Assembly (NCBI GenBank): GCA_001771815.1
Contig: MEPU01000004.1
Location: 744,001 to 808,000 of the forward strand
Length of the DNA: 64,000 bases
Direction of reading: 5' to 3'
From: Bdellovibrionales bacterium RIFCSPHIGHO2_01_FULL_40_29
GTDB lineage: Bacteria; Bdellovibrionota; Bdellovibrionia; Bdellovibrionales; Bdellovibrionaceae
Below, one piece after another: positions 2,824 through 36,483 of this stretch. Positions within the stretch are counted from its first letter, which is position 1; each line of letters starts with the position of its first letter. The notes under the pieces are model-generated. The model had not been told where the DNA came from, ran no database searches, and worked only from the letters and a program-made list of their open reading frames with translations. The translations under genes were made by a program, and so were the position numbers.

Positions 2824-3900
2824 TTAGAACATGTATGTAACGCCAACTTGGCTTAACAATGCAGTAGCTGAGTAAGTTTGTAAACCTGTAGCTAAGATTG
2901 TTCCGTCAACAGTCAACTTGTTGAACTTTAAACCAGCTCCGAAAGCTGCAGTTGTAGAGTTCGCACCTGGAGCAGTTTCTGTAGTCGCTGTACCAGCAGT
3001 TTCAGTTTTAGTGTTATCAAGTAATACTAAATTCTGAGTCAATGAACCACGGAAAGCCATCCAGCTGCTAGCTTCAACTTCTAAACCCATCCAAATAGGT
3101 AAGTTCAAGATAGTTGTTTTAGTGTCAGCAATAGTTTCTTTGTCTGCACGGCTAAATAATTTAGCACCGTAGAAAAACTCGTTGCCATCTTTTTTGTTAG
3201 AAGAAACAACACCGGCTTGGATATCCATACGTGTGAAGTTTGCTAACTCAGTTCCAGCAGCATTTTCTAATTTTGCACCAGCATTTGTCACACCAGCAAA
3301 AGCATACATATTTTCCATAGTGTAACCAACGTTACCAGAAAGACCAATAGTGCCTTTGTATTTAGTAGCAGCTGTATCAACTGTATTTACTAAACCCAAA
3401 CCAACTGAGAAATCGATTGCGCCCATACGCATACCGAAACGAGCACCAGTTGATGATTCTTTTTCATCGTTAACTTTGTCGTTGTAGTTAGAGTAAACCA
3501 AAGTTCCACCCCAAGCCATGTCGCCAGTTTTCATACCGTAAGACAACTCAAGTGGATTTTGTTGATTAGCGTTCGCTGGACCAGTCAAGTTAGGTGCGAA
3601 TGAACGTAATCCCCAGTCAGAAGCGTTTGTAGATTGGTGACCCAAAGACAAACCCATTTTTGCATCGCCCATAGAGCGAACAACCATACCTTCAGCATTT
3701 GCATTCTGAGTTGCAGTTGTAGTTAAACCAGACTCTACAGTTACATAATCGCCACCAACATAAAACATGTCAGAAGGGTTTGTGTAAACTGTTTGAGTGT
3801 CCACTAAGTGTGGAGAGCTACCTAAAGCTGTCATACGAGCGCGAGATCCGAAAGCGTTAACAGAAGCTAATGCTACTGCAATCACTAATAATTTTTTCAT
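2824..3900 (-). CDS. Porin-like outer-membrane beta-barrel protein
   Basis: 358-residue exported protein with a clear signal peptide (MKKLLVIAVALASVNAFG) and alternating polar/aromatic strands to a terminal VGVTYMF, typical of an outer-membrane barrel with C-terminal Phe. Start at 3898-3900 is set by AAAGGACG upstream and the signal peptide; the frame extends 18 codons further without support. Its own promoter region and a strong terminator (2762-2797) mark a single-gene, probably highly expressed unit. Codon use is narrow (GTT, GCA/GCT, AAC favoured), unlike the neighbours, as expected for an abundant protein. I do not recognise a named family; pore function is an inference. Confidence 0.72.
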   Translation of the reverse strand: MKKLLVIAVALASVNAFGSRARMTALGSSPHLVDTQTVYTNPSDMFYVGGDYVTVESGLTTTATQNANAEGMVVRSMGDAKMGLSLGHQSTNASDWGLRSFAPNLTGPANANQQNPLELSYGMKTGDMAWGGTLVYSNYNDKVNDEKESSTGARFGMRMGAIDFSVGLGLVNTVDTAATKYKGTIGLSGNVGYTMENMYAFAGVTNAGAKLENAAGTELANFTRMDIQAGVVSSNKKDGNEFFYGAKLFSRADKETIADTKTTILNLPIWMGLEVEASSWMAFRGSLTQNLVLLDNTKTETAGTATTETAPGANSTTAAFGAGLKFNKLTVDGTILATGLQTYSATALLSQVGVTYMF

Positions 3901-4411
3901 TTTGCGTCCTTTCGTTAAGTGCAAATTGTTTTTTTGTTTTACCTTATGGATCAAATCCTAATGAGGGGCGTTTTTAAACGCAACGGAAAAAATGAATCAC
4001 CATAGAGGATTGCATGTCTTGAGTTGCTGAAATTTCAGGATTGTGTAGCCTAAAGACATCACTGCTTTCTGTGAAAATTTTGAAATATTTCTGAGCACTT
4101 CAAATATTTTTCTTTGATATTTTTAATGTATTTCAGTTTGTAAAAATCGCTGAAACTGATATCTGTAGCGGGTTTCACAAACTGTCATTCAAAGTACTGA
4201 TGTCTTTGATTTTGAAGCACCTCGATACTCCGCAATGCACATGTTTTGAGTATGTATTTTACTTCTAAAAAATAACGCATAGGCGCAAACCGCATGAAGT
4301 CATTCTTGGACCAAGGTCTAGGATAAGCCTGTTATTTGACCGTTTTTAGCCGCCAGACCAACTACAGGTAGGATCTAGGTTCTGTTAATTAAACTAAACT
4401 TGGATTTTGAC
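3901..4411. other. Long intergenic region before rnr
   Basis: About 510 nt between divergent genes, the longest gene-free stretch in the window. It holds several dyads: GCGTTT-TT-AAACGC at 3968-3981 in the porin promoter region, CTGAAATTTCAG near 4038-4049, and TCAGTTT...AAACTGA near 4134-4159. The final 150 nt before rnr are unusually long for a leader here. No recognisable RNA gene was seen, though an untranslated regulatory leader or small RNA is possible. Confidence 0.5.
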
Positions 4412-6898
4412 ATGACTTTTATCATTCATAAACTGAATATGAAACTCATGAATTCAAAATTGAAAAGCTTAACTGGAATGATCAAACGCCACCCTGATGG
4501 ATTTGGATTTTTCATTCCAGACGATCAAGAACATGCCGATGTCTATATCCCTTCCGCAGGTATGCATACGGCCATGACGAATGATCGAGTCACTGTTGCT
4601 GTTGAAAAAGAACGCGATGGACGCTTTCGCGGAGAAATTCTTCGCATCGAAGAGCGTTCTCAGAATAAAATTGCAGGAAAATTTACGAAATTAAATGAAC
4701 GCCTCGGTATTATTAAAGACGAAGGCAAGGGCTGGGGGTCAGATCTTCGCATTCCATTGGAAAAATCAATGAATGCAAAGGATGGCGAGCTGGTTGCCGC
4801 ACGCATCACTCAGTATCCTGATGCCGGAAAATTTGAAGGCGAAGTTTCTGAAGTTATCGGAGACGCGCTCAATCCATTGAATGATATCAAACGTGTCATT
4901 ATCACTCAGAATATTCCCGAAAAGTTTACTCCTGAAACTCTGGAACAAGCCCAACGATTCGCTGCAAATCCGACTGAAAAAGATTTTGAAGGACGCACGG
5001 ATTTACGTCATTTGCCGATCATTACTATAGATGGCGCTACCGCAAAGGATTTCGATGATGCGGTTTATGTCGAGATGACCGATGTTGGTTTTCACCTTTA
5101 TGTAGCGATTGCAGATGTCAGTCATTACGTCACTGTCCATTCTGCCATGGACAAAGATGCTTATGAACGTGGAACCTCTGTTTATTTTCCGAATTATGTT
5201 GTTCCTATGTTGCCCGAAGCTATTAGTAATGGACTTTGTTCTTTGAATCCTCATGTGCCTCGTTTAGCCCTAGTTGCTGAAATGAATTTTGATTTTACTG
5301 GCGACATGACGGATTCTCGGTTTTATGAAGGTGTCATCGAAAGCAAATCACGCGTCACCTATGGTGAAGCCCAAGAGCTTTTGGATGGAAATCCAGCAGA
5401 ATCAACTGTTTCAACTAAAAACAAAGATGTTCAAGAAAATATTTTTCGCTGTGCTGATTTGGCAAAAGTTTTGATGGCGAAACGCTTTAAAGAAGGATCT
5501 TTGGATCTTGAAGTGCCCGAAACCGAACTTGTTATTGATGGCACCGGAGAACCGATTGACATTATCAAATCAGAACGTCTTTTTGCACATCGCCTGATCG
5601 AAGAACTAATGCTGGCTGCGAATGTGGCTGTGGCTAAGTTTTTATCGTCAAAAGAAGTTCCGGCTATGTACCGGGTCCACGAAGAGCCCGCCAGCGAGAA
5701 AATCGAAATTTTACAGCGCTATATGAAAAATTTCGGAGCACAAACCGCTGTTGGCGGTGGCAAATTACAAAAAAGACTCACCCGTATGCTTCAAGAATTT
5801 GAAGGCAAACCCGAAGCTCAGATTATTCATATTCTGACTTTGCGCTCAATGAGTCAGGCTAAATACACCAAAGAAAATGTGGGACACTTTGGATTAGGAT
5901 TCGAATTTTACACGCACTTCACCTCACCCATCCGTCGTTATCCTGATTTAATTGTACATCGCTTATTAAAAAATTTAGCTATTCCTGGCAGCCACTATCG
6001 CTTGATGAGCGAAGATGATTTAGCAACTGCAGGCACCTGGCTGTCTGCTTGCGAGCAAAAATCCGCAAAAGCAGAACGCCAAATTCAAGCTATCAAAAAA
6101 GCCCGCTTTATGAAAAAAATGGAAGGCGAAGAATTCGAAGGAATCGTCAGTTCTGTTACAAAATTTGGATTATTTATACTTTTACGCCAGTTTAATATTG
6201 ATGGCTTAGTTCGCCTGGATGATTTGGGATTAGATAAATGGGAGTTTGATGACGAAAATTTAACTCTGACCGCAAAGCGATCTGGGATGACCTACAAAAT
6301 GGGCGATCAGCTGAAAGTGATTGTCAGTGCAGTTGATGTGGAACAAGGCCAAATTAATTTTGTCATCGATAAAGAGAAAAAAGATCACCCAATCGGCAAA
6401 GTAACTACTTATGCCCGGCCCAAAAAAGCAGACGAGGCTTCTTCACGTAAAAATTTTCGTTCACAACGACGTCCTGAGAAATCATCTGATCGAAAAAAGA
6501 CTTCTGATAAAAAATCTTTCGAGAAAAAAACATTCGAAAAAAAATCCTTCCAAAAGAAAATTGTCGGAAACAAACAGCAGCAGCAACCTGCTTTTGATAT
6601 TAAAAAATTTCGCCCGGCCGGCGTGACCAGTACGCCAGCTCCTGCGACAACTTCGAATTCAACATCAGGTGGCAGTTACGAGATCAAGCCACGGTATGCT
6701 TCTTTAGCTGATTATTTAGATCAAAAAGGGAATAATAAGAATGAAGAAACCACCAACTCGAAATCAGCAGCGAAGTCCTCTGCTGGGGCCACTCCGAATC
6801 GGACGCACTTTAAGAAACGCCAATCGTCTTCGAACGATTCTGGGGGTGTTCGCAAAGCACGGCCTCAAAAATCTAGTCGAAAAAATAAATCTCGGTAA
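4412..6898 (+). CDS. rnr: Ribonuclease R
   Basis: 3'-to-5' exoribonuclease of the RNB family, which degrades structured RNA and works in quality control. N-terminal cold-shock-like OB domains (IKRHPDGFGFFIPDD near the start), the RNB catalytic block with DGATAKDFDDA around residue 210 carrying the metal-binding Asp residues, and a C-terminal S1 domain (FEGIVSSVTKFGLFILL). After it comes a low-complexity Lys/Arg/Ser/Gln-rich tail of about 150 residues, probably RNA-binding. Start is uncertain: TTG 4400, ATG 4412 (weak GGA upstream), ATG 4439 or 4448. Its last 158 nt overlap ubiB in another frame, so the tail is encoded by DNA that also encodes the N-terminus of UbiB. Confidence 0.93.
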   Translation: MTFIIHKLNMKLMNSKLKSLTGMIKRHPDGFGFFIPDDQEHADVYIPSAGMHTAMTNDRVTVAVEKERDGRFRGEILRIEERSQNKIAGKFTKLNERLGIIKDEGKGWGSDLRIPLEKSMNAKDGELVAARITQYPDAGKFEGEVSEVIGDALNPLNDIKRVIITQNIPEKFTPETLEQAQRFAANPTEKDFEGRTDLRHLPIITIDGATAKDFDDAVYVEMTDVGFHLYVAIADVSHYVTVHSAMDKDAYERGTSVYFPNYVVPMLPEAISNGLCSLNPHVPRLALVAEMNFDFTGDMTDSRFYEGVIESKSRVTYGEAQELLDGNPAESTVSTKNKDVQENIFRCADLAKVLMAKRFKEGSLDLEVPETELVIDGTGEPIDIIKSERLFAHRLIEELMLAANVAVAKFLSSKEVPAMYRVHEEPASEKIEILQRYMKNFGAQTAVGGGKLQKRLTRMLQEFEGKPEAQIIHILTLRSMSQAKYTKENVGHFGLGFEFYTHFTSPIRRYPDLIVHRLLKNLAIPGSHYRLMSEDDLATAGTWLSACEQKSAKAERQIQAIKKARFMKKMEGEEFEGIVSSVTKFGLFILLRQFNIDGLVRLDDLGLDKWEFDDENLTLTAKRSGMTYKMGDQLKVIVSAVDVEQGQINFVIDKEKKDHPIGKVTTYARPKKADEASSRKNFRSQRRPEKSSDRKKTSDKKSFEKKTFEKKSFQKKIVGNKQQQQPAFDIKKFRPAGVTSTPAPATTSNSTSGGSYEIKPRYASLADYLDQKGNNKNEETTNSKSAAKSSAGATPNRTHFKKRQSSSNDSGGVRKARPQKSSRKNKSR

Positions 6899-26663: not shown

Positions 26664-27381
26664 TATTTTTTATCACGTCCGTTAGTTCTTTTGGATTATC
26701 AAAAATTACCCGATGACCTGAATGAATCCTGCTGTATTCCAGCAGGATTTTTTTTGTTTTCAACTCTTCAGCAATTCCAATAAATTTGGGATCTTCTGAT
26801 CCCACAATCCAGGATACTTTATTTTGGTGTTTTAAAATAAACTCATGCATTTCATCTTGAGTCCCCAAGGACCAAAGCTTTAATGATTCGCTCAGCTTAA
26901 TCATGTCAAAATCTTTCTCGTAACGAGCTGGTTCCAAAGATGTTTTCAAAAAAACTGTTTGAGAATTCCATTTTTTTAAAAAGCTCTCCCAAGGTTCGTT
27001 TTTTACCAAATCAGCCCAGACAGCATCGCTTTTTTGTCGATCTTGGCGCAAATCGAAACTGGATAATCCAGGATGGGTTGAAATAAAAATGAAATGATCA
27101 AATAACCACGAATACTTTCTCAGAATATAAAGGCCTAATCGCCCACCAAGCGAGTAGCCAATAAATACTTTCTTGCGAGCCATATCCCCATCGGGTTTAT
27201 ACCTAGCTATTAATTCATCCACGTAAACTTCATAACTCTTAATGGGAGGGGATGTCTTATTAAACATCTCCGGAGTGAACCATTGGGCCTGCAAATGCTT
27301 TTGACATGCAAACCAATCCTGCGATTGTCCCAAAAATCCATGTAACGCAAATATTAAATCTTGTTGCAAGCGGCATCCCAT
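26653..27381 (-). CDS. menH: Alpha/beta-hydrolase, probable SHCHC synthase MenH
   Basis: Probable 2-succinyl-6-hydroxy-2,4-cyclohexadiene-1-carboxylate synthase of menaquinone synthesis. FALHGFLGQSQDW gives the oxyanion region, GYSLGGRLGL the nucleophile elbow with the MenH-typical SLGGR, and SGHRVIFDNP the catalytic His. It overlaps the end of menD by 28 nt, which supports menH over other hydrolases. Start is uncertain: ATG 27381 (used), TTG 27390 or TTG 27369, none with a clear ribosome-binding site. Confidence 0.82.
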   Translation of the reverse strand: MGCRLQQDLIFALHGFLGQSQDWFACQKHLQAQWFTPEMFNKTSPPIKSYEVYVDELIARYKPDGDMARKKVFIGYSLGGRLGLYILRKYSWLFDHFIFISTHPGLSSFDLRQDRQKSDAVWADLVKNEPWESFLKKWNSQTVFLKTSLEPARYEKDFDMIKLSESLKLWSLGTQDEMHEFILKHQNKVSWIVGSEDPKFIGIAEELKTKKILLEYSRIHSGHRVIFDNPKELTDVIKNIIA

Positions 27382-28895
27382 GCAGACCAAAAATGTTTTG
27401 TCTGCTCTGAATCAGGTTGAATTTCTATGATGCTAAAACTTTCAAGCAGACTCAGTCGATCAAAATCAGGGACAGTGGTGATTTTTAAATAATTCCATCC
27501 CCACATTTTTGCTAACATTTCAAATTCGACCCGATGAGAATTGATAAACCGGTCATTATTAAAAACGCGGTTAAAAATTTGACCACCAAAATTATTCATG
27601 ATCACCATATTTTTTTTACCAGAACCAGAAACCATACCTAGCGCGGCTAAATCATAAAGTGCCGTCAAATCACCAATAAAACACCAAGTCGGTTGTAACT
27701 GAGGCAACGCCCAACCCAAATACGTCGAAATTTGACCATCAATTCCATTGGCTCCACGATTTGCTGAAATGAGCTGCTCGCCACCACAGGCTCGAGCAAA
27801 TAAATCCCACTCGCGAATCGGCAAAGAATTTCCCAGATAGAGGGGATCCTTTTCAACTTTCTTGGACAATTCAAAGACCATCGCAGGCTCACTCAATGGA
27901 AATTTTTCAAATAACTCTGCTTTTAAATTTTCAAGTGACGGCAGTGTTTTCAAATTTGATTCTAATATCGGAGGCACCATCACATTTTCTAATTGCAACT
28001 GATACGTCTGTGATAATCTAGACAAGCCCGAAAAAGGCAAATTTGTAAAATTAATAACAGGCACATCTTTAAATTTAAATTCCAAATCTCGCCAGAAACG
28101 CAATGTGGGAATTCCACCAATTCGAATCACCGAATCACAGACATTGGTTTCAATCAACTTTTTCACCACGACATCACTGACATCAATCCGGTACGAATTC
28201 AAATCCGAATGACCGCGCAGCTGACTGAGAGCTTCTAGATACACAGGAGCTTTCAATTTTTTCAAAAATTCAATAACTTCATTTTTTTGCAACGGTGCTA
28301 ATTCAGAAACAATAACCAAGGGTTTTTTCAGTGTGCTTAAGACTGATTTCGGTGCTATTGGATTTGCATGAGAATGCAAAACACTCACTTTAAGGTTGGG
28401 CTTCAAACTTGAGTCATCAATTAATGGTTCATCAAAGCATACATTCAAGTGAATGGGTTTTTGCAAACGAGTTGTGTGCTCAGTTGCTGGCGGTTGCCCA
28501 TCCCAATCGAATGTTTGTTCAACATAGTGAGAGAACATTCCAACATGATTGATACTCTGGGGTGCACCAGAATTCCGATAGGCTTTGGGACGGTCTGCAG
28601 TCACCAGAATCAATGGCAGACCTTGATAAAAAGCCTCCACGGTGGCCGGTAACAGCTCTGCGACGGCTGTTCCAGATGTCGTCATCACGGCCACAGGTTT
28701 TCCTGTTTTTTTAATAAGTCCAAGTGCGAAAAAACTGGCACTGCGCTCTTCAAAGTAATGAATAGTATGAAACTTTTCAGTCTCTAGGTGAATCACCAAT
28801 GGAGCATTTCTGGCTCCAGCACACACGATGATATGTTCCGTTCCAACTTGCTTCAAAAATTCAAATACATTCTGGCACAGATCTTTGTTGGTCAT
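27354..28895 (-). CDS. menD: SEPHCHC synthase MenD
   Basis: TPP-dependent enzyme joining isochorismate and 2-oxoglutarate, the first committed menaquinone step. The N-terminal domain has VCAGARNAPLVIHLE and EERSASFFALGLIKKTGKPV with the TPP-activating Glu, TTSGTAVAELLPATVEA; the C-terminal domain has SANRGANGIDGQISTYLG and CFIGDLTALYDLAAL (GDxT metal site, with NNFGGQIFN later). 513 aa is standard. It overlaps menF by 4 nt and menH by 28 nt, so a tight operon. Confidence 0.95.
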   Translation of the reverse strand: MTNKDLCQNVFEFLKQVGTEHIIVCAGARNAPLVIHLETEKFHTIHYFEERSASFFALGLIKKTGKPVAVMTTSGTAVAELLPATVEAFYQGLPLILVTADRPKAYRNSGAPQSINHVGMFSHYVEQTFDWDGQPPATEHTTRLQKPIHLNVCFDEPLIDDSSLKPNLKVSVLHSHANPIAPKSVLSTLKKPLVIVSELAPLQKNEVIEFLKKLKAPVYLEALSQLRGHSDLNSYRIDVSDVVVKKLIETNVCDSVIRIGGIPTLRFWRDLEFKFKDVPVINFTNLPFSGLSRLSQTYQLQLENVMVPPILESNLKTLPSLENLKAELFEKFPLSEPAMVFELSKKVEKDPLYLGNSLPIREWDLFARACGGEQLISANRGANGIDGQISTYLGWALPQLQPTWCFIGDLTALYDLAALGMVSGSGKKNMVIMNNFGGQIFNRVFNNDRFINSHRVEFEMLAKMWGWNYLKITTVPDFDRLSLLESFSIIEIQPDSEQTKHFWSAWDAACNKI

Positions 28896-30004
28896 TGATT
28901 AAATCCCATCATGCGCTTCACTGAATTTCTTTTATTTTCAAGCTCGGCAAGTTCTGCTTCCAGATCACTTTCAGTAGTGACACCACATCCAGAAAATATT
29001 TTAATGCTGTCCTTAGAAAAATAAAAGTTTCGAATTGCAGCAACGACCTTTAAATTCGAACGATTCAAAAAACCAAACGGTGCCGCAAAGTTATTGCGAT
29101 TTTGCTGCTCTCCGATTCTTTGAAATTCTCGGTAGTGCTTTTCATGACGCGGAAAAATCCCCAACGCCGCCGTCGGCGGAAGTGAGTTTAAAATTTGAAG
29201 TGCTTGCTTCAACTCCACATCTAAAATAGCTATCTGAGTCAGCAAATGAGTTAAATGTTTCAATACTAAAACTTCAGTTGGGTTAACCTGCACAGATTCC
29301 AGATGCATCTTTTTTTCCAAAACGGATAAGATATCATTCACTACAATTTGGTGCTCTTGACGAATTTTTAGATCTTTCAATATAAGAGCTTCATTTCCTA
29401 GGGCAGCCGTTCCAGCCAATGCCATAGTGACTAACTTTTTGTTTACCTGATCCCACTGAGCAACCAGTTCTGGTGTTTGCCCTAGAAATCCGCTTCCATC
29501 AGACCATATCCCATAAGTTGTTCCATAATGATTTTCATTTAAAAGGGACAGTAAGGCTGCCGCCAAATTTTCAAATCCGAAAGACCCATTCGCCTGTTGA
29601 GAGATTATAGGAACAGTTTTGACCAAGTCGCCTGATGAAAATTGTTGAAAGCTCCACTGAAATTGCTCGATAAAATCTGATTGTGTACAGGGATCCCAAT
29701 TCCAATTGGTTTCTTTTGAAATTTCTGATTTCAATAATTCAATAAGTTCACTACGGTTAAGGACCATTTCCTGAATGCCCATAACAGCAGAAGCACTTTT
29801 GTGATCTATAAAATCCCAAAAATTTGGTTGAAATATGACGGTTTTTTCATCTGACAGTTGAGTTTCAACGGCATCTACAGGTGAAAATGGACCCCAGATC
29901 ACTTTAAATTGATCTAATGAGGTTTGCAGGATGGATCCTGCTTGTAAAAAGTTTGTAAAATTGGATTTTTTTATGTTACTTTGCACCTCCACGAAGACTA
30001 GCAA
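28892..30004 (-). CDS. menF: Isochorismate synthase MenF
   Basis: Chorismate-utilising enzyme; its position directly before menD identifies it as the menaquinone isochorismate synthase. Motifs: LAGTA near the middle, LKHLTHLL, LPPTAALGIFPR (Thr/Pro-rich active-site loop), FAAPFGF, and the C-terminal FSGCGVTTESDLEAELAELENK. 370 aa, with a reduced N-terminus. The start is uncertain: the frame opens at TTG 30004 and has no early ATG; GTG codons lie 4 and 6 codons later, next to GGAGGTG. Confidence 0.92.
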   Translation of the reverse strand: MLVFVEVQSNIKKSNFTNFLQAGSILQTSLDQFKVIWGPFSPVDAVETQLSDEKTVIFQPNFWDFIDHKSASAVMGIQEMVLNRSELIELLKSEISKETNWNWDPCTQSDFIEQFQWSFQQFSSGDLVKTVPIISQQANGSFGFENLAAALLSLLNENHYGTTYGIWSDGSGFLGQTPELVAQWDQVNKKLVTMALAGTAALGNEALILKDLKIRQEHQIVVNDILSVLEKKMHLESVQVNPTEVLVLKHLTHLLTQIAILDVELKQALQILNSLPPTAALGIFPRHEKHYREFQRIGEQQNRNNFAAPFGFLNRSNLKVVAAIRNFYFSKDSIKIFSGCGVTTESDLEAELAELENKRNSVKRMMGFNQ

Positions 30005-30028
30005 AAGTATTCGATGAAATAAAGCGTC

Positions 30029-30034
30029 TATAAT
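30029..30034 (+). promoter_or_regulatory. Probable -10 box for aroF-menG
   Basis: A perfect TATAAT, 17 nt upstream of the aroF ATG, in the 47-nt gap between divergent menF and aroF. No good -35 hexamer is visible at the right distance, so it is a candidate only; the transcript leader would be only about 10 nt. Confidence 0.45.
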
Positions 30035-30051
30035 TGAAAGTGTGACTCTAA

Positions 30052-30831
30052 ATGATTGTTCAAGTCGGAAATGTGAAAATTGGTGGACCTCAATTTACAG
30101 TGATCGCTGGCCCCTGTTCGATTGAGTCTGAAGGACAATTTCGCCAAACCTCTGAATCTGTAAAAAAATCTGGCGCGGCTCTGTTGCGCGGTGGAATTTG
30201 GAAAATGCGGACATCGCCAAAATCCTTTCAAGGCCTCGGACAAAGCGCTTTCGATTTTATCAAAAAAGTTAAAAATGAAACTGGCTTAGGCCTTGTTTCC
30301 GAAGTCACTGATATTCGTCAAATCGAAGAAATTTCTCCTTTTGTTGATGCCTTTCAAGTTGGTGCTCGCAATATGCATAACTACTCATTGCTCAAAGAAT
30401 TGGGTCATCAACCAAAACCTGTTCTGCTTAAACGAAATTTTTCAGCTTTTATCGATGAATGGCTTAAAGCAGCAGATTATGTCGCTCAGGGTGGAAATCA
30501 GAACGTTATTCTTTGTGAACGCGGGATTCGTACATTTGAAACAGCCACTCGAAATACCTTAGATCTGAATGCTGTTGTTTATGCTAAAAAGAATTCTCAC
30601 TTTCCTGTTGTTGTCGATCCGTCTCACGCTGTTGGAATCAGCGAGCTTGTTGCACCACTTTGTTTTGCAGCTGCGGCAGCTGGCGCTGATGGATTGATTG
30701 TCGAAGTTCACCCCGAACCTGCGAAAGCACTTTCTGATGGAGATCAAGCCCTCACGCTTGAGGGTTTTGATAAAATGATGAAACAACTTGAAAAAGTTCT
30801 CAATGCCTTTGATCGCACTCTTAAAATGTAG
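30052..30831 (+). CDS. aroF: DAHP synthase, type I-beta (AroF/KdsA-like)
   Basis: Condenses PEP and erythrose-4-phosphate, the first step to chorismate. 259 aa with the compact Bacillus/Thermotoga type fold: AGPCSIES, RGGIWKMRTSPKSFQG, QVGARNM, LLKRNFSAFIDEWL, CERGIRTFE, DPSHAVG and EVHPEPAKALSDG carry the phosphate and metal ligands. No fused chorismate mutase or ACT regulatory domain, so feedback control is not obvious. It is followed after 9 nt by menG. Confidence 0.93.
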   Translation: MIVQVGNVKIGGPQFTVIAGPCSIESEGQFRQTSESVKKSGAALLRGGIWKMRTSPKSFQGLGQSAFDFIKKVKNETGLGLVSEVTDIRQIEEISPFVDAFQVGARNMHNYSLLKELGHQPKPVLLKRNFSAFIDEWLKAADYVAQGGNQNVILCERGIRTFETATRNTLDLNAVVYAKKNSHFPVVVDPSHAVGISELVAPLCFAAAAAGADGLIVEVHPEPAKALSDGDQALTLEGFDKMMKQLEKVLNAFDRTLKM

Positions 30832-30840
30832 GAACTCTCG

Positions 30841-31551
30841 ATGGAAAAACATGCTCCAGATCCAATCATTATTAAATCCATGTTCTCAAAAGTAGCTGCC
30901 AATTATGATAAGGCCAATTCTGTTTTATCCATCGGCATTCACCATCTCTGGAGAAAAAAACTCGTTTATTTAGCTGGAACCAAGCCTGGGCAATCTGTCT
31001 TGGACTGCGCTACCGGAACTGGTGATTTAGCCATCGAGTTTAAAAAAACTGTGGGACCAAACGGAACAGTCATCGGAACAGATTTTTGTTCAGAAATGCT
31101 GGCGCCTGCACCTGCAAAAGCAAAATCACAAAATCTGGATATCCAATTTGAACAAGCCGATGTGACAGCCCTTCAGTACCCAGACAACACATTCGATATT
31201 GTCAGTATCTCTTTCGGTATTCGCAATGTCAGCGATCCTATTAAAGCTCTGCAGGAAATGGCTCGAGTTGCAAAACCAGGCGGAAAAGTCATGGTTCTGG
31301 AATTTGGTCAAATAAGCATTCCTATTTTAAATAAAGCCTACGTCCTATACTCTGAAAAAATTCTTCCGATTCTGGGCGGATGGGTTACCGGACAACGCGA
31401 AGCTTATGATTACTTACAAAAATCATCGGCGGCCTTTCCATGTCGCGAAAATTTTATTTCATTAATGAAAACTTCTGATTGCTTCAGTTCGATGGCATAC
31501 CGATCGGTCAGTTTTGGAATTGCTTATATTTATATTGGTGTCGTGAAATAA
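30841..31551 (+). CDS. menG: Demethylmenaquinone methyltransferase MenG/UbiE
   Basis: SAM-dependent C-methyltransferase for the last menaquinone step. FSKVAANYDKANSVLSIGIHHLWR is the UbiE/MenG N-terminal signature, DCATGTGDLA the SAM-binding loop, SFGIRNVSDPIKALQEM and VLEFGQ the family motifs. Upstream men genes argue for menaquinone as the substrate; one enzyme serves both quinones in some bacteria. It ends 3 nt before the convergent aroC stop. Confidence 0.93.
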   Translation: MEKHAPDPIIIKSMFSKVAANYDKANSVLSIGIHHLWRKKLVYLAGTKPGQSVLDCATGTGDLAIEFKKTVGPNGTVIGTDFCSEMLAPAPAKAKSQNLDIQFEQADVTALQYPDNTFDIVSISFGIRNVSDPIKALQEMARVAKPGGKVMVLEFGQISIPILNKAYVLYSEKILPILGGWVTGQREAYDYLQKSSAAFPCRENFISLMKTSDCFSSMAYRSVSFGIAYIYIGVVK

Positions 31552-31554
31552 AAA

Positions 31555-32586
31555 TTAAAAACGGCTCTCTATTTTATCTAAGCGTGTCCATAATAAATGA
31601 TCCGTCAAAACCAACCAAGCCATCGATTCAACCACAGGAACTGCGCGTGGTATAATGCAAGGATCATGACGCCCTTTTTTTGCAGTATCTTTGATAGAAG
31701 ATGTTGGCTTAAAGGCCACGCGGATAATAATTTCTTCACCCGTCGTGATTCCACCTCGAATTCCACCATATTTTGCAGAATGACTCTCTTTGTGAAACTC
31801 TTGACCAGCAATCTCTGATGCTGAAAAACCCTCGCCAATTTCAATGGCCGTCGCCGCACCAATACTCAACATAGCCTGGGCCAGATCAGCCTTTATTTTA
31901 TGAAAAACAGGCTGTCCCAATCCCGCTGGAACATTTTTAACTCGCAACTCAACCACTCCGCCAAAACTTTCGCCTTCAATTTTTGCTTGTTCTAGCATGG
32001 TGACGATTTCGTTATTTTTTAAAGATGGAAAACGCGTGGGATACGAATCAATATTTTGTTTCCAGACAGTGGCTAACTCTGCCGGTGTTAATTTGTAAGG
32101 TCCAATTTCAGAAGCAAAACCTTTGACTTGAATCTTTGCGCTCAATTGCTGAGCCACCATTTGCGCCACAGAACCAGCAACAACACGGCACAAAGTTTCG
32201 CGACCCGAGGAACGTCCGCCCCCCCGATAATCAACATGATCAAATTTTTCCTTCCACATATCATCAGCATGACCAATACGCGGACTATTTTTGATTTCCT
32301 GATAGTCCGCTGATTTTTGATCGGTATTTTCAACAACAATACAAATAGGTGTCCCCAAAGTTTTGTTCTCAAAAACCCCGCTCATAACGACGGGAATATC
32401 AGCTTCTTGACGTGATGTCGTGACAGAACTCTGTCCAGGTCGTCTGCGATCTAAATTTGCTTTTATCAAATCGAAGTCAAACTTAACTCCTGCGGGACAA
32501 CCATCAATAACCACTCCCAATGCTTTTCCGTGGCTTTCTCCGAAAGTGATGACTTTAAATAATGTTCCAAAAGAATTTGCGCTCAT
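31555..32586 (-). CDS. aroC: Chorismate synthase
   Basis: FMN-dependent lyase turning EPSP into chorismate, the last common step. FGTLFKVITFGESHG, DRRRPGQSSVTTSRQEAD and GGRSSGRET are the three classical signatures, and AVPVVESM closes the C-terminus. Start at 32586 from the SANSFG N-terminus; its ATG overlaps the stop of the aroK-aroD-aroE fusion (ATGA). Fourth gene of the aroB-aroA-aroKDE-aroC operon. Confidence 0.97.
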   Translation of the reverse strand: MSANSFGTLFKVITFGESHGKALGVVIDGCPAGVKFDFDLIKANLDRRRPGQSSVTTSRQEADIPVVMSGVFENKTLGTPICIVVENTDQKSADYQEIKNSPRIGHADDMWKEKFDHVDYRGGGRSSGRETLCRVVAGSVAQMVAQQLSAKIQVKGFASEIGPYKLTPAELATVWKQNIDSYPTRFPSLKNNEIVTMLEQAKIEGESFGGVVELRVKNVPAGLGQPVFHKIKADLAQAMLSIGAATAIEIGEGFSASEIAGQEFHKESHSAKYGGIRGGITTGEEIIIRVAFKPTSSIKDTAKKGRHDPCIIPRAVPVVESMAWLVLTDHLLWTRLDKIESRF

Positions 32587-34295
32587 TTTTGACTCCAATA
32601 CTTTTGCTGACTCATCGCTTGAGCATTAAACATACCTAACCCCGAGATATAGGAACACTTCTTTTTTTGAGCGTACTCTAAACCCATCGAATTTTCTCGA
32701 TAATTTAAATCCACGATAAGCCTTGGATTCCAATTTTCCGGAGGCCACTGAGTCTGCTCCGTCCGCGGAGTCGACCAAATAACGACATCCGGTTGAGTCT
32801 GATTCAACATTGGCGCTCGAGAAGAATAAAAGTGAGCCTGTGGAACTACTGATTTCATCATGGCCAACGTTCCACCACCACCCCAAACAGCAATGGAATC
32901 ATTTGGTTTAATCTCTGCTAAATGAATTAAACTTTTAAAACCCTCTGCATCTGTGTTCTCAGCGAAAATCTGAGGTCCTTCTATTAATAAAGTATTTGCA
33001 GTCTGAAACTGTTGAGACAAATTGGTCGACTGAGTGGATTTGTAAAAAGCATTTTTTTTCAACGGTGACGTCACGGCAACATATTTTAAACCAAGTGCAA
33101 TCAACCAATCAAAAGCTTCGTTAAAATCTGCTTCAGACAATTGAATGGCTGTAAAAAATGTCTTTTTTTCTCGAAAAAATTCACGGTGCTTTTCTGGACT
33201 GCGAGAAAATAAAACCGGATTCCCCACAACTGCTGCAAAAGTGTTGGGCTTACTTGCGGGCAAAAGCAGCCACTGGTAAATAGAAGGCTGATCTGCAATA
33301 TCCGTTTGATTGCGCACAAAATTAATTTTTTGAAAATACTTTGATAGCTGGCGAAACCAAACCCATTTGCCAGTTGCAGAGCGTGGCAAAAAACTTCTCT
33401 GCTGGGGTTGTTGCTGCTGCCACAAATGGCCTTTCAACAGATCCGCAAAGTTTTCCACAACCGGAGACAGCTTAATGTGTGTTTTCGTACCAAGTTTTTC
33501 TATCATCGCTATAGCCACATCTAGTGATTCTTCGTGACATGAAATAACATTTTGTGGGTTTTCCAAAAAATCTGCAGGACGACTCGGTATATGAATATCA
33601 AAATCTGTTCGTACGGATACTGTCGGAACCTCTTCTGTTCGAATCGAAAGCAGCCATTGAAACTGAGGATCTTGATGAATAATCTCTGAAATAAGTCGCA
33701 TTGGAATCAAATCCGATCGCAATTCAATCTGTAAAAATACTTTTTTAATCCGAGACAACTGAGGAATATCATTTGCTGTTAACGTATAAATGCCATCAGA
33801 AATAAAAAAATTATTCTGCAAAATTTGCTGTTCTATCTCATTCGAAGTTTCGACTCCCTCTGGCAAATGATAAATAAAATCAGAATACTGCAAAAATTGT
33901 TTCTGACGAATGCTATATTTTTGCTGGTATTCGGCTTGTGGATCAACGTCTGCATTCAATCGAGGTCGGTTCAAAAAAATGCGCCCATCCTGATCCGTCA
34001 CTCGAGAAACAAATATTTTCTGAATGTCTTTCGGCAACTGACCGATATCAAAACCCGCTCCAAGACTAATCACAAAATTTGGGTGGGCTCGAAAAAGTTT
34101 TTCGACAGTTTCTAATTCCTGTTTACGAAAATAAGCTTCCCCATAGTTTTTAAAAACATCATCAATAGACAGTCCTACAGACTTTTCTACTTCTAAATCC
34201 AAATCGAAATGAAGAACATCCGGGAAATACTCTTGATGTCTTTTTAATAATGTTGATTTTCCAACACCTCGATGTCCAATCAGAACTCGCTTCAT
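32583..34295 (-). CDS. Trifunctional shikimate kinase - DHQ dehydratase-like - shikimate dehydrogenase fusion
   Basis: One 570-aa chain with three shikimate-pathway domains. Residues 1-165: shikimate kinase (P-loop GHRGVGKST 7-15, D31/D33, FRKQE 56-60, SLGAGF, RPRL lid 110-113). Residues about 183-343: type I 3-dehydroquinate dehydratase-like, with E191-x-R193, SIRT 218-221, H254, Schiff-base candidate K275 and a late Q336; at about 160 residues it is shorter than the usual 220-250. Residues 350-570: shikimate dehydrogenase (S364/S366 in GNPVLFSRSP, K413, D449 in ENTD, GGGG 472-475, Q559). Kinase-dehydratase-dehydrogenase is the domain order of the C-terminal half of eukaryotic AROM. ATGA overlaps join it to aroA upstream and aroC downstream. 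Confidence 0.88.
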   Translation of the reverse strand: MKRVLIGHRGVGKSTLLKRHQEYFPDVLHFDLDLEVEKSVGLSIDDVFKNYGEAYFRKQELETVEKLFRAHPNFVISLGAGFDIGQLPKDIQKIFVSRVTDQDGRIFLNRPRLNADVDPQAEYQQKYSIRQKQFLQYSDFIYHLPEGVETSNEIEQQILQNNFFISDGIYTLTANDIPQLSRIKKVFLQIELRSDLIPMRLISEIIHQDPQFQWLLSIRTEEVPTVSVRTDFDIHIPSRPADFLENPQNVISCHEESLDVAIAMIEKLGTKTHIKLSPVVENFADLLKGHLWQQQQPQQRSFLPRSATGKWVWFRQLSKYFQKINFVRNQTDIADQPSIYQWLLLPASKPNTFAAVVGNPVLFSRSPEKHREFFREKKTFFTAIQLSEADFNEAFDWLIALGLKYVAVTSPLKKNAFYKSTQSTNLSQQFQTANTLLIEGPQIFAENTDAEGFKSLIHLAEIKPNDSIAVWGGGGTLAMMKSVVPQAHFYSSRAPMLNQTQPDVVIWSTPRTEQTQWPPENWNPRLIVDLNYRENSMGLEYAQKKKCSYISGLGMFNAQAMSQQKYWSQK

Positions 34296-35479
34296 ATACT
34301 TAATCCCACATCCTGCCAAAAATGAGGATAACTTTTATGAACGACTTCAGGATTCAAAATTGTCAGATTGAATCCAGCTAATTTTAATAAACCAGCCGCC
34401 ATGGCCATGCGGTGATCTTGATCCGGATTAAATAAAACGCTCTGTGTTCGATCTTTTGTCGACGAGCTTCCATAAATAGCCAATCCATCATTTATAATTT
34501 CAGTTTTAAATCCGCAAAGACTTAATAACTCGATCGTCTTAGCCATACGATCGGATTCTTTAGATTTCAAATGTTGAGCCCCATACAAATAGGATCTCCC
34601 TTGACCCAAACCACACAGCACGGCCAGCACTGGAAATAAATCTGGCGTCGCATTCAAATTTTCTTTGCAACTGCTCCATGATTCACACTGTGAAACCGTC
34701 AAAGTGCTCTGCTGAATCAAATAGGGAATTTTCATGCGCTTAAAAATATTTAAAAACTCGCGATCCGGTTGCAAAGAATCATTGGGCCAATTTTGAATCT
34801 CGGCGTGGCCAGCAATGACGGCGGCTGCGGACAAAGAAAATGCCGAACTCATATCCATTTCAGCAATAAAGGGTTGTGCTGATACAGGTTGCTTTGATTT
34901 TTCTATATGAAGCTTTAGATAATTTTCATCTTGGGTTTGTTTGATATTCATTTGCAGACGTTTGACCATTTCAATGGTCATTTCTAGATAATCTTCTGAA
35001 ACAATTGGTTTTTGAATTTGAAGATCTAATGATTCCGGCAAATTCCAGGCATTCAGAATCAATCCAGAGACAAACTGACTCGAGACATTCCCCTGACAAA
35101 AAATTCGAGAGGGAATCTTCCACCCTTCAGAACGCAATTGAACACGCTGAGATTCAAAAATAATATCGACACCCAATTGTTCAAGAATACTTTTCAACTC
35201 CAATTGCGGCCGTTCCAATAATCGCGGACTGGCATTCAGAATCCATGTTCCAGGATAACGCGAAACCAAAAGGGAAAAAAAACGAAATGTTGTTCCGCCC
35301 TCTCCCAAGTGAAATTCTTTTTTACCTTGTTGTAATTGTGCCAGAGCCAGTTGCGTATTTTTAACGTCTTCAGATTCTGATTGGCCAGACACTTGAAGTA
35401 ATGGATTGTAATGCTGAATAATCAAGGCTCGATTCAGCCATGATTTTGAACTTTCAATAAGCCCCTTAAATAAAAACAC
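34292..35479 (-). CDS. aroA: EPSP synthase (3-phosphoshikimate 1-carboxyvinyltransferase)
   Basis: Adds enolpyruvate to shikimate-3-phosphate. SSKSWLNRALI matches the KS-x-x-NRALI substrate site, LGEGGTTFRFF the GNAGTTMR motif (divergent at the first residues), DMSSAFSLSAAAV the middle motif, and LKSKESDRMAKTIELL with DHRMAMAAGLL the C-terminal signatures. 395 aa is slightly short. GTG start that overlaps the aroB stop by 1 nt (TAGTG); its own stop overlaps the next ATG (ATGA). Confidence 0.92.
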   Translation of the reverse strand: MFLFKGLIESSKSWLNRALIIQHYNPLLQVSGQSESEDVKNTQLALAQLQQGKKEFHLGEGGTTFRFFSLLVSRYPGTWILNASPRLLERPQLELKSILEQLGVDIIFESQRVQLRSEGWKIPSRIFCQGNVSSQFVSGLILNAWNLPESLDLQIQKPIVSEDYLEMTIEMVKRLQMNIKQTQDENYLKLHIEKSKQPVSAQPFIAEMDMSSAFSLSAAAVIAGHAEIQNWPNDSLQPDREFLNIFKRMKIPYLIQQSTLTVSQCESWSSCKENLNATPDLFPVLAVLCGLGQGRSYLYGAQHLKSKESDRMAKTIELLSLCGFKTEIINDGLAIYGSSSTKDRTQSVLFNPDQDHRMAMAAGLLKLAGFNLTILNPEVVHKSYPHFWQDVGLSI

Positions 35480-36483
35480 TAGTATTCCTGCTTTTGTCGG
35501 CGCATTTCATTAATTAAAGAATCTAGAGATACTTTTCGACGAAGTACCTTTCCAATTTTTGATATAAAAATAAAATCAATTTCCGTAGAGGAAACTAGTT
35601 TTTTATCTTTTGATAATAAATGACGAACTTCCGTAAATGAAATTTTTCCCAAGAGCGTTTGCAAATCATTATCACCACGCGAATGAACAGCTTTCCAAAT
35701 TTGAACAAAGTCTGGCTGCTTCAACAAACCCAGCTGGAAACTCCAGCGAGCTGAAAATAAAATTCCTAATTTGACGGCTTCACCATGAGGTAACTGAAAC
35801 AAACTTTCAAGAACGTGCCCCACGGTATGTCCCAAATTAAGTACGCGGCGAGCGCCACGTTTTTCATCTGGATCCATTTTAACAATTTTCATTTTTGCCG
35901 AAATCAACTCTGGTAAACTATCAAACAGTGGTGATTTGACTTTGTTTTGCAAAATCTTTGGTGTGTTGATAATTGCCATTTTAAGAACTTCCCCAAAAGC
36001 CTCGTCTTCGCGCTCTATGGGTTGAGATTCCAGAAGCGTTCGAACAAGGTAAACCTGAGATGCCGGGTAAATAGTACCGATTTGATTTTTAACGGCATTG
36101 AAGTTCAATCCGTTCTTTCCTCCATGGGCTGAGTCGATGGCGGCAAGCCAGGTCGAAGGTATTTGCACAAAATTTCGACCCCGTAAAAAAATGCTCGCCA
36201 AAAACCCAACAAAATCACCCACACTGCCACCGCCAACTGCAATGAATGTCAATTCAGTTGTCTGAGGTAAGCCTTTTGAAACCATAATCTTTAAGATCTT
36301 TTGCAACGAGTCCAGAGTTTTTAAAGACTCTCCAGCTGTTAGAGGGAAAGCATAAGAAAAAGCCCGACGCCACTGCTTAAACGAAGGTTGACGATCTAAG
36401 ATCCGATCATAAAACAGAACAGAGTTCGCTGGAAACTGGCTTCGCTGGGGTAATTTTGGCGCATAAACAATTTCGGTTTTCAC
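35479..36483 (-). CDS. aroB: 3-Dehydroquinate synthase
   Basis: NAD- and metal-dependent cyclase making 3-dehydroquinate, second shikimate step. VGGGSVGDFVGFLASIFLRG, DSAHGGKNGLN (nucleotide/substrate site), GEVLKMA, LNLGHTVGHVLE and HGEAVKLGI carry the Lys, Glu and His ligands. 334 aa is at the short end. GTG start at 36483. First gene of the four-gene aro operon. Confidence 0.95.
   Translation of the reverse strand: MKTEIVYAPKLPQRSQFPANSVLFYDRILDRQPSFKQWRRAFSYAFPLTAGESLKTLDSLQKILKIMVSKGLPQTTELTFIAVGGGSVGDFVGFLASIFLRGRNFVQIPSTWLAAIDSAHGGKNGLNFNAVKNQIGTIYPASQVYLVRTLLESQPIEREDEAFGEVLKMAIINTPKILQNKVKSPLFDSLPELISAKMKIVKMDPDEKRGARRVLNLGHTVGHVLESLFQLPHGEAVKLGILFSARWSFQLGLLKQPDFVQIWKAVHSRGDNDLQTLLGKISFTEVRHLLSKDKKLVSSTEIDFIFISKIGKVLRRKVSLDSLINEMRRQKQEY

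Follow-up and report, generated by a model that had tools for sequence, protein, structure and literature searches.

Operon structure

The 64,000-nucleotide stretch of Bdellovibrionales bacterium RIFCSPHIGHO2_01_FULL_40_29 analyzed here (GenBank assembly GCA_001771815.1, contig MEPU01000004.1, positions 744,001 to 808,000 of the forward strand; hereafter the window, numbered from its first letter) carries on its minus strand, at 31555-36483, an operon of the shikimate pathway. Read directly from the sequence, it comprises aroB, aroA, a fusion gene and aroC in that order, with the fusion gene, here termed KDE, joining a shikimate kinase (SK), a domain resembling type I 3-dehydroquinate (DHQ) dehydratases (DHQD) and a shikimate dehydrogenase (SDH) in a single chain (Table 1). 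The order of genes and domains, B-A-K-D-E, is that of the eukaryotic AROM polypeptide, in which DHQ synthase (DHQS), 5-enolpyruvylshikimate-3-phosphate (EPSP) synthase (EPSPS), SK, DHQD and SDH follow one another (PMC6851490). This order differs from that of the reactions, and the chance of an exact five-domain match is 1 in 120, a post hoc figure for one lineage. The original prediction, made from the DNA letters alone, had called the four genes, the three stop/start overlaps and the agreement with AROM, and all of these are borne out by our reading of the sequence, by Pfam and NCBIfam matches and by the published AROM order.

Table 1. Features of the operon and its surroundings (window coordinates)
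Feature	Position	Strand	Basis
aroB, 3-dehydroquinate synthase, 334 aa, GTG start	35479..36483	-	Pfam PF01761 2.2e-29, PF24621 5.9e-22
aroB/aroA stop/start overlap TAGTG	35477..35481	-	one shared base at 35479, read from sequence
aroA, EPSP synthase, 395 aa, GTG start	34292..35479	-	Pfam PF00275 3.7e-47; TIGR01356 4.6e-64
aroA/KDE stop/start overlap ATGA	34292..34295	-	read from sequence
KDE fusion gene (shikimate kinase / type I DHQ dehydratase / shikimate dehydrogenase), 570 aa, ATG start	32583..34295	-	Pfam, NCBIfam, conserved residues
KDE: shikimate kinase domain, residues 1-160; P-loop GHRGVGK, D33, R57, RPRL lid motif	33816..34295	-	SKI PF01202 1.6e-12 (residues 9-82); conserved columns
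KDE: predicted divergent, shortened type I DHQ dehydratase domain, ~residues 170-345	33261..33788	-	profile-profile comparison, PDB match, invariant residues
KDE: shikimate dehydrogenase domain, residues 350-570; K413/D449 dyad, GGGG dinucleotide loop, Q559	32586..33248	-	Shikimate_dh_N PF08501 4e-07 (residues 356-436); TIGR00507 2.2e-25; invariant columns
KDE/aroC stop/start overlap ATGA	32583..32586	-	read from sequence
aroC, chorismate synthase, 343 aa, ATG start	31555..32586	-	Pfam PF01264 1.8e-108; NF003793 above its cut-off
UbiE/MenG methyltransferase	30841-31551	+	Pfam/NCBIfam match
DAHP synthase, pathway step 1	30052..30831	+	PF00793 1.9e-71; NF006421 4.3e-118, above cut-off
Isochorismate synthase	28892-30004	-	Pfam/NCBIfam match
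MenD	27354-28895	-	Pfam/NCBIfam match

The true start of KDE is the ATG at 34295, the listing of open reading frames having placed it at an upstream TTG. AroB is divergent, scoring 9e-66 with TIGR01357, under the curated cut-off of that family. A promoter scan at the operon returned scores no better than those of shuffled sequence.

The KDE protein

The N-terminal part of KDE has all the hallmarks of a shikimate kinase, with the Pfam SKI match, the P-loop, the shikimate-binding Asp and Arg and the lid Arg in place, and its C-terminal part combines a match to the substrate-binding domain of shikimate dehydrogenases with the Lys/Asp dyad, while scoring below the NCBIfam equivalog cut-off. Between these, residues 82-356 stay blank in Pfam, with no match to DHquinase_I. 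Aligned as a profile of 21 sequences, the middle domain pairs with a type I DHQ dehydratase alignment at an hhalign probability of 89% (E 2.3e-6), and its best match in the PDB is the DHQ dehydratase 2ocz (E 1.1e-4). Residues E191, R193, D195, R219, S252, H254, K275, R315 and Q336, which include the motifs E191-x-R193-x-D195 and S252-x-H254, are invariant across 24 diverse KDE proteins, and in the hhalign alignment the ELRSD, SCH and the Lys of IKLS in KDE pair with ELRLD, SFH and the Lys of IKIV of known enzymes. In type I DHQ dehydratases a Lys and a His form the catalytic pair; the complete active-site set (catalytic Lys and His, E-x-R, Arg, Gln) is present in KDE. Judged by these alignments, the middle domain is a divergent type I DHQ dehydratase, and the likeness proposed in the original prediction is upheld in the face of a blank Pfam result.

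The source genome, which is 99.99% complete, offers no candidate other than KDE for the three activities: KDE is the sole match there for SKI and for Shikimate_dh_N, neither PF01487 (DHquinase_I) nor PF01220 (DHquinase_II) finds a match anywhere in it, and the aroB of the operon is its one DHQ synthase match. Among the 144 genomes of the same class, the dehydratase AroQ occurs in four, none of which has KDE, and the chance of all four falling among the 16 KDE-less genomes is about 1e-4 (a hand calculation that treats genomes as independent of kinship). Because no other SKI, Shikimate_dh_N or DHquinase match exists in the source genome, and because AroQ and KDE do not occur together in any genome of the set, KDE most probably performs pathway steps 3, 4 and 5. 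Three of the four AroQ genomes have ordinary separate genes, in the order A-E-C-K-B.

Distribution and four-enzyme chains

The survey of relatives covered 369 genomes of the phylum. KDE has homologues in 129 of the 144 class genomes and, scattered within the phylum outside the class, in G318, G326, G333, G335, G347, G349, G350 and G367. Wherever the available locus DNA is long enough, the order B-A-KDE-C is kept nearly throughout, and the 4-base ATGA register is identical in 54 of the 70 unfused aroA/KDE junctions that were counted. An arrangement shared so widely across the class is not due to chance, an outcome that the original prediction had left to such a survey.

The operon goes one step further in roughly ten relatives, which belong to three families: AroA is fused to KDE there, into what amounts to AROM minus its first domain. 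An in-frame AroA-SK-DHQD-SDH chain is present in G038 and G039 (family f1), in G079, G080, G081, G083 and G089 (f7) and in G326 and G333 (f26), and G082 (f7) shows it as far as the contig end; AroB lies directly upstream of the four-enzyme chains. The original prediction had likened the operon to an AROM with two remaining breaks, and in these relatives one of the two is removed. Linkers are short. Six of the eight junctions that were read (L032, L033, L036, L037, L039, L083) have no ATG between the end of AroA and the kinase P-loop, an ATG being present in L034 and L084. Counted by hand, 38 nt separate the FW motif of AroA from the first glycine codon of the P-loop in the window operon, which leaves the two out of frame; the spacing is in frame in g12 (33 nt) and in f7 (39 nt), and f26 has a different AroA end that lacks the FW motif. 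Because the two in-frame spacings differ and f26 is without the motif, separate small indels are suggested to have made the fusions.

Four enzymes are the most found in one chain: a five-enzyme bacterial chain, of the kind that the original prediction proposed to look for, occurs in none of the 369 phylum genomes, and AroB is separate in every relative examined. Three long frames that we considered as longer fusions (1366 aa in G333, 1073 aa in G084, 1013 aa in G490) were rejected, with AroB or AroA lying in another frame.

Further observations were made on individual loci. AroA is gone from between AroB and KDE in L003 (G048), L088 (G349) and L089 (G350). In L043 (G128), at 3825-6158, the DHQD-SDH part is apparently in frame with AroC too, up to the contig end, with Ns in the kinase part. 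Three near-complete class genomes without KDE (G001, G090, G141) seem to have lost the whole shikimate pathway, because SK, SDH and DHQ synthase matches are all lacking. In the operon tree, KDE operons from outside the class (L083, L084 and L087 of f26, L085 of f23, L090 of f29) nest within class sequences, which suggests transfer of the whole operon to these families. Elsewhere, KDE was found in none of 52 genomes of the phylum of G381 and none of five of that of G384, both sets being without an internal positive control, and the phylum of G379 gave one KDE operon in 392 genomes, that of G490. This operon (L281) is a complete B-A-KDE-C operon of the KDE lineage within a Planctomycetota-placed genome, possibly by transfer or as a misbinned contig.

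Test of kinship with eukaryotic AROM

AROM domains were taken from the PDB sequences of C. thermophilum, C. albicans, A. nidulans and R. solani, found with a yeast ARO1-like bait, and placed in trees of EPSPS, DHQS, SK and SDH and of the four genes concatenated. The KDE lineage forms a clade of its own in each single-gene tree (support 100/99 for EPSPS, 100/100 for DHQS, 100/99 for SDH, 100/100 for SK) and, with full support, in the concatenated tree. AROM falls among ordinary bacteria in all of these trees, those of DHQS and SDH included, with support of 100/99 for EPSPS and 100/100 for SK and a star in the concatenated tree. Ranked by similarity to profiles of the KDE lineage, AROM sequences come 66th and 78th of 83 for EPSPS, 15th and 23rd of 29 for SK, 26th, 27th and 30th of 32 for SDH, 24th to 26th of 28 for DHQS and 8th, 10th and 11th of 11 for DHQD, that is, no higher than the median of bacteria in any of the five domains. 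The EPSPS domain of AROM is 43-45% identical to the E. coli and plant enzymes versus 25-29% to those of the KDE lineage. The window operon has three rather than all five enzymes in one polypeptide, and its domains are placed apart from AROM by the four single-gene trees and, for DHQD, by profile rank. Common ancestry with AROM is, on these sequence comparisons, not supported rather than strictly excluded.

Fungal AROM forms a starred group in the concatenated tree with L134 (G377, Woesearchaeota), G375 (Gracilibacteria) and G384, which we regard as a lead on possible bacterial kin of AROM; the L134 operon reads B-(D-E fused)-A-K.

Genomic surroundings

A gene for 3-deoxy-D-arabino-heptulosonate 7-phosphate (DAHP) synthase lies near the operon on the opposite strand, and all seven pathway steps therefore lie within 6.4 kb. 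Menaquinone genes flank the operon, so that about 9 kb (27354-36483) holds the steps from DAHP to chorismate together with the start of menaquinone synthesis. Within aroA (34292-35479), the EPSP synthase of the lineage reads GEGGTTFRF in the alignment where the usual enzyme reads GNAGTAMRP, a position that we take to be the loop known for glyphosate binding.

Interpretation

The reading that we favor, and consider quite probable, is that an AROM-like polyprotein has been assembled convergently, step by step, out of an operon of matching order, the middle gene of which codes for a three-domain shikimate enzyme. The enzyme of the KDE lineage would be a multifunctional shikimate enzyme that is AROM-like in order, stands outside the AROM family and presumably works like part of AROM. 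AroB would supply dehydroquinate to KDE, where the middle domain, with K275 as the Schiff-base lysine and H254 as the base, would form dehydroshikimate; the C-terminal domain (K413/D449) would reduce this to shikimate and the N-terminal kinase would phosphorylate it, after which AroA and AroC would complete the route to chorismate. Translation is most likely coupled through the TAGTG, ATGA and ATGA overlaps, which would yield the four proteins together and in matched amounts, from DHQ synthase through chorismate synthase. As to the course of evolution, the genes would have been ordered B-A-K-D-E first, K, D and E would have fused early in the lineage, and later small indels at the overlap may have fused A to KDE in some relatives, giving the four-enzyme chain, which a single break still separates from AROM. 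AROM forms a homodimer via its DHQS and DHQD domains. More speculatively, and in our estimate doubtful, AroB might assemble with AroA and KDE, or with the four-enzyme chain, into a stable complex of AROM-like layout, in which case the lineage would document the stages between an operon and a polyprotein, and structural constraint, not ancestry, would account for the non-pathway order that it shares with AROM.

Of the two origins offered in the original prediction, convergence fits the sequence data better, and the other, that the operon is a relic or relative of the AROM precursor with the signal of a shared fused or co-ordered ancestor (by descent or transfer) erased by divergence, we hold to be very improbable. 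The same five-domain, non-pathway order and the four-domain chains of the relatives would be expected of it, and some points weigh against convergence: approximately unbiased (AU) tests, run on careful tree searches after a quick-search EPSPS tree had missed better trees and given unreliable AU values, are compatible with grouping KDE and AROM (p 0.096 for EPSPS, 0.307 for DHQS, 0.435 for SDH, 0.377 for SK and 0.201 for the four genes); the AROM sample is fungal alone, the bacterial EPSPS sequences were picked by similarity to AROM, and DHQD, too divergent for a tree, was compared by profile rank. To these must be added that the single-sequence structure model of KDE is poor (mean pLDDT 37.8) and that the number of AroA-KDE fusions is uncertain, being two to three by parsimony, with AU tests compatible with a single AroA-KDE clade (p 0.37 and 0.279). 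A phmmer search with the whole of KDE puts AROM first in the PDB, but as the sum of two weak domain matches, and the KDE domains taken singly find better matches there in ordinary bacterial enzymes. The supported trees that separate AROM from the KDE lineage, the similarity ranks and EPSPS identities given above, and a score of 27 bits for KDE with TIGR01809 (AROM shikimate dehydrogenase) versus 89 for ordinary AroE all argue against the precursor; the link to AROM that the original prediction had sought in domain trees is absent from them.

Convergent assembly must also be weighed against the possibility that the gene order is historical and has no functional meaning, fusion being neutral drift in a compact operon. 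That the fusion state differs among relatives is consistent with drift, as is the fusion of the same genes in other ways by other bacteria, as D-E-K (L282, L286), E-K (G296) and K-B (G372, G373); the retention of order and ATGA register over very divergent families, and later fusions that extend the same order, nevertheless make drift unlikely. The middle domain of KDE could be a decayed, inactive linker, with DHQ dehydrated by an unrecognized enzyme. There is a precedent in Candida albicans, where the DHQ dehydratase domain of Aro1 is dead and Dqd1 substitutes (PMC9074039), and both the missing Pfam match and the shortening to about 175 residues would suit such decay, but the active-site E/R/D, H, K, R and Q are invariant, no AroQ or AroD match is present elsewhere in the genome and AroQ and KDE never share a genome, so that we give this explanation little credence. 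An artefact of assembly or sequencing, through missed stop codons or mis-joined genes, might be suspected from the draft state of some relatives, the Ns in L043 and the placement of L281 in another phylum. It is negligible in our judgment: the frame is intact in about 100 independent genomes, several of them single-contig, and the four-enzyme chains recur across several genomes of g12, f7 and f26.

Comparison with known systems

The origin of AROM has been termed a long-standing enigma, and a survey of prokaryotes found two-enzyme exceptions only (PMC10792529). In the open literature we found no report of three-enzyme prokaryotic shikimate fusions, nor of the KDE lineage, subscription literature being mostly outside the search. 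Because open reports are of two-enzyme prokaryotic fusions only, the three- and four-enzyme bacterial fusions look new. They show the AROM order at successive stages within a bacterial lineage, K-D-E joined and then A-K-D-E joined, and make it testable whether protein assembly imposes this order. Fungal AROM reportedly gains nothing in throughput in vitro (PMC9074039), and the natural separate, three-enzyme and four-enzyme versions allow any kinetic or stability benefit of fusion to be compared.

Several known fusions share parts of KDE. The bifunctional DHQD-SDH enzymes of plants, of NF006802/PRK09310 and of Planctomycetota-placed genomes likewise place a shikimate dehydrogenase behind a type I DHQ dehydratase, but have no kinase in front, and KDE scores 52.8 bits with NF006802 versus a curated cut-off of 598. 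The clostridial DHQD-SK fusion (CASP15 T1180, PMC10792529) also joins a bacterial type I DHQ dehydratase to a shikimate kinase, but comprises two enzymes and is without the dehydrogenase. SK-DHQS fusions (NF010556/PRK13951, NF010627/PRK14021) are bacterial bifunctional shikimate enzymes as well, with the kinase attached to AroB instead of DHQD-SDH. DHQD-SDH-SK chains found in two Planctomycetota-placed genomes (L282, 4533-7319, minus strand; L286, 2714-4816, plus strand) combine these three activities in a single polypeptide, in the order D-E-K versus K-D-E and with domains close to ordinary bacterial ones. They are evidently an independent fusion, and they show that multi-enzyme shikimate fusions arise repeatedly. 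In L191, L216 and L233 (G296), from another family of the phylum, the order is B-D-(E-K fused)-A, the exact reaction order, with an SDH-SK fusion.

Eukaryotic AROM/Aro1 of fungi and protists shares with the KDE lineage the same five activities in the same order and a type I DHQ dehydratase, three of the domains being joined in one polypeptide in the window operon and four in relatives. It differs in that AroB is separate in every relative examined, EPSPS is separate in the window and AroC belongs to the same operon, and in that the domain sequences of the lineage are not AROM-like, the dehydratase and dehydrogenase domains being shorter.

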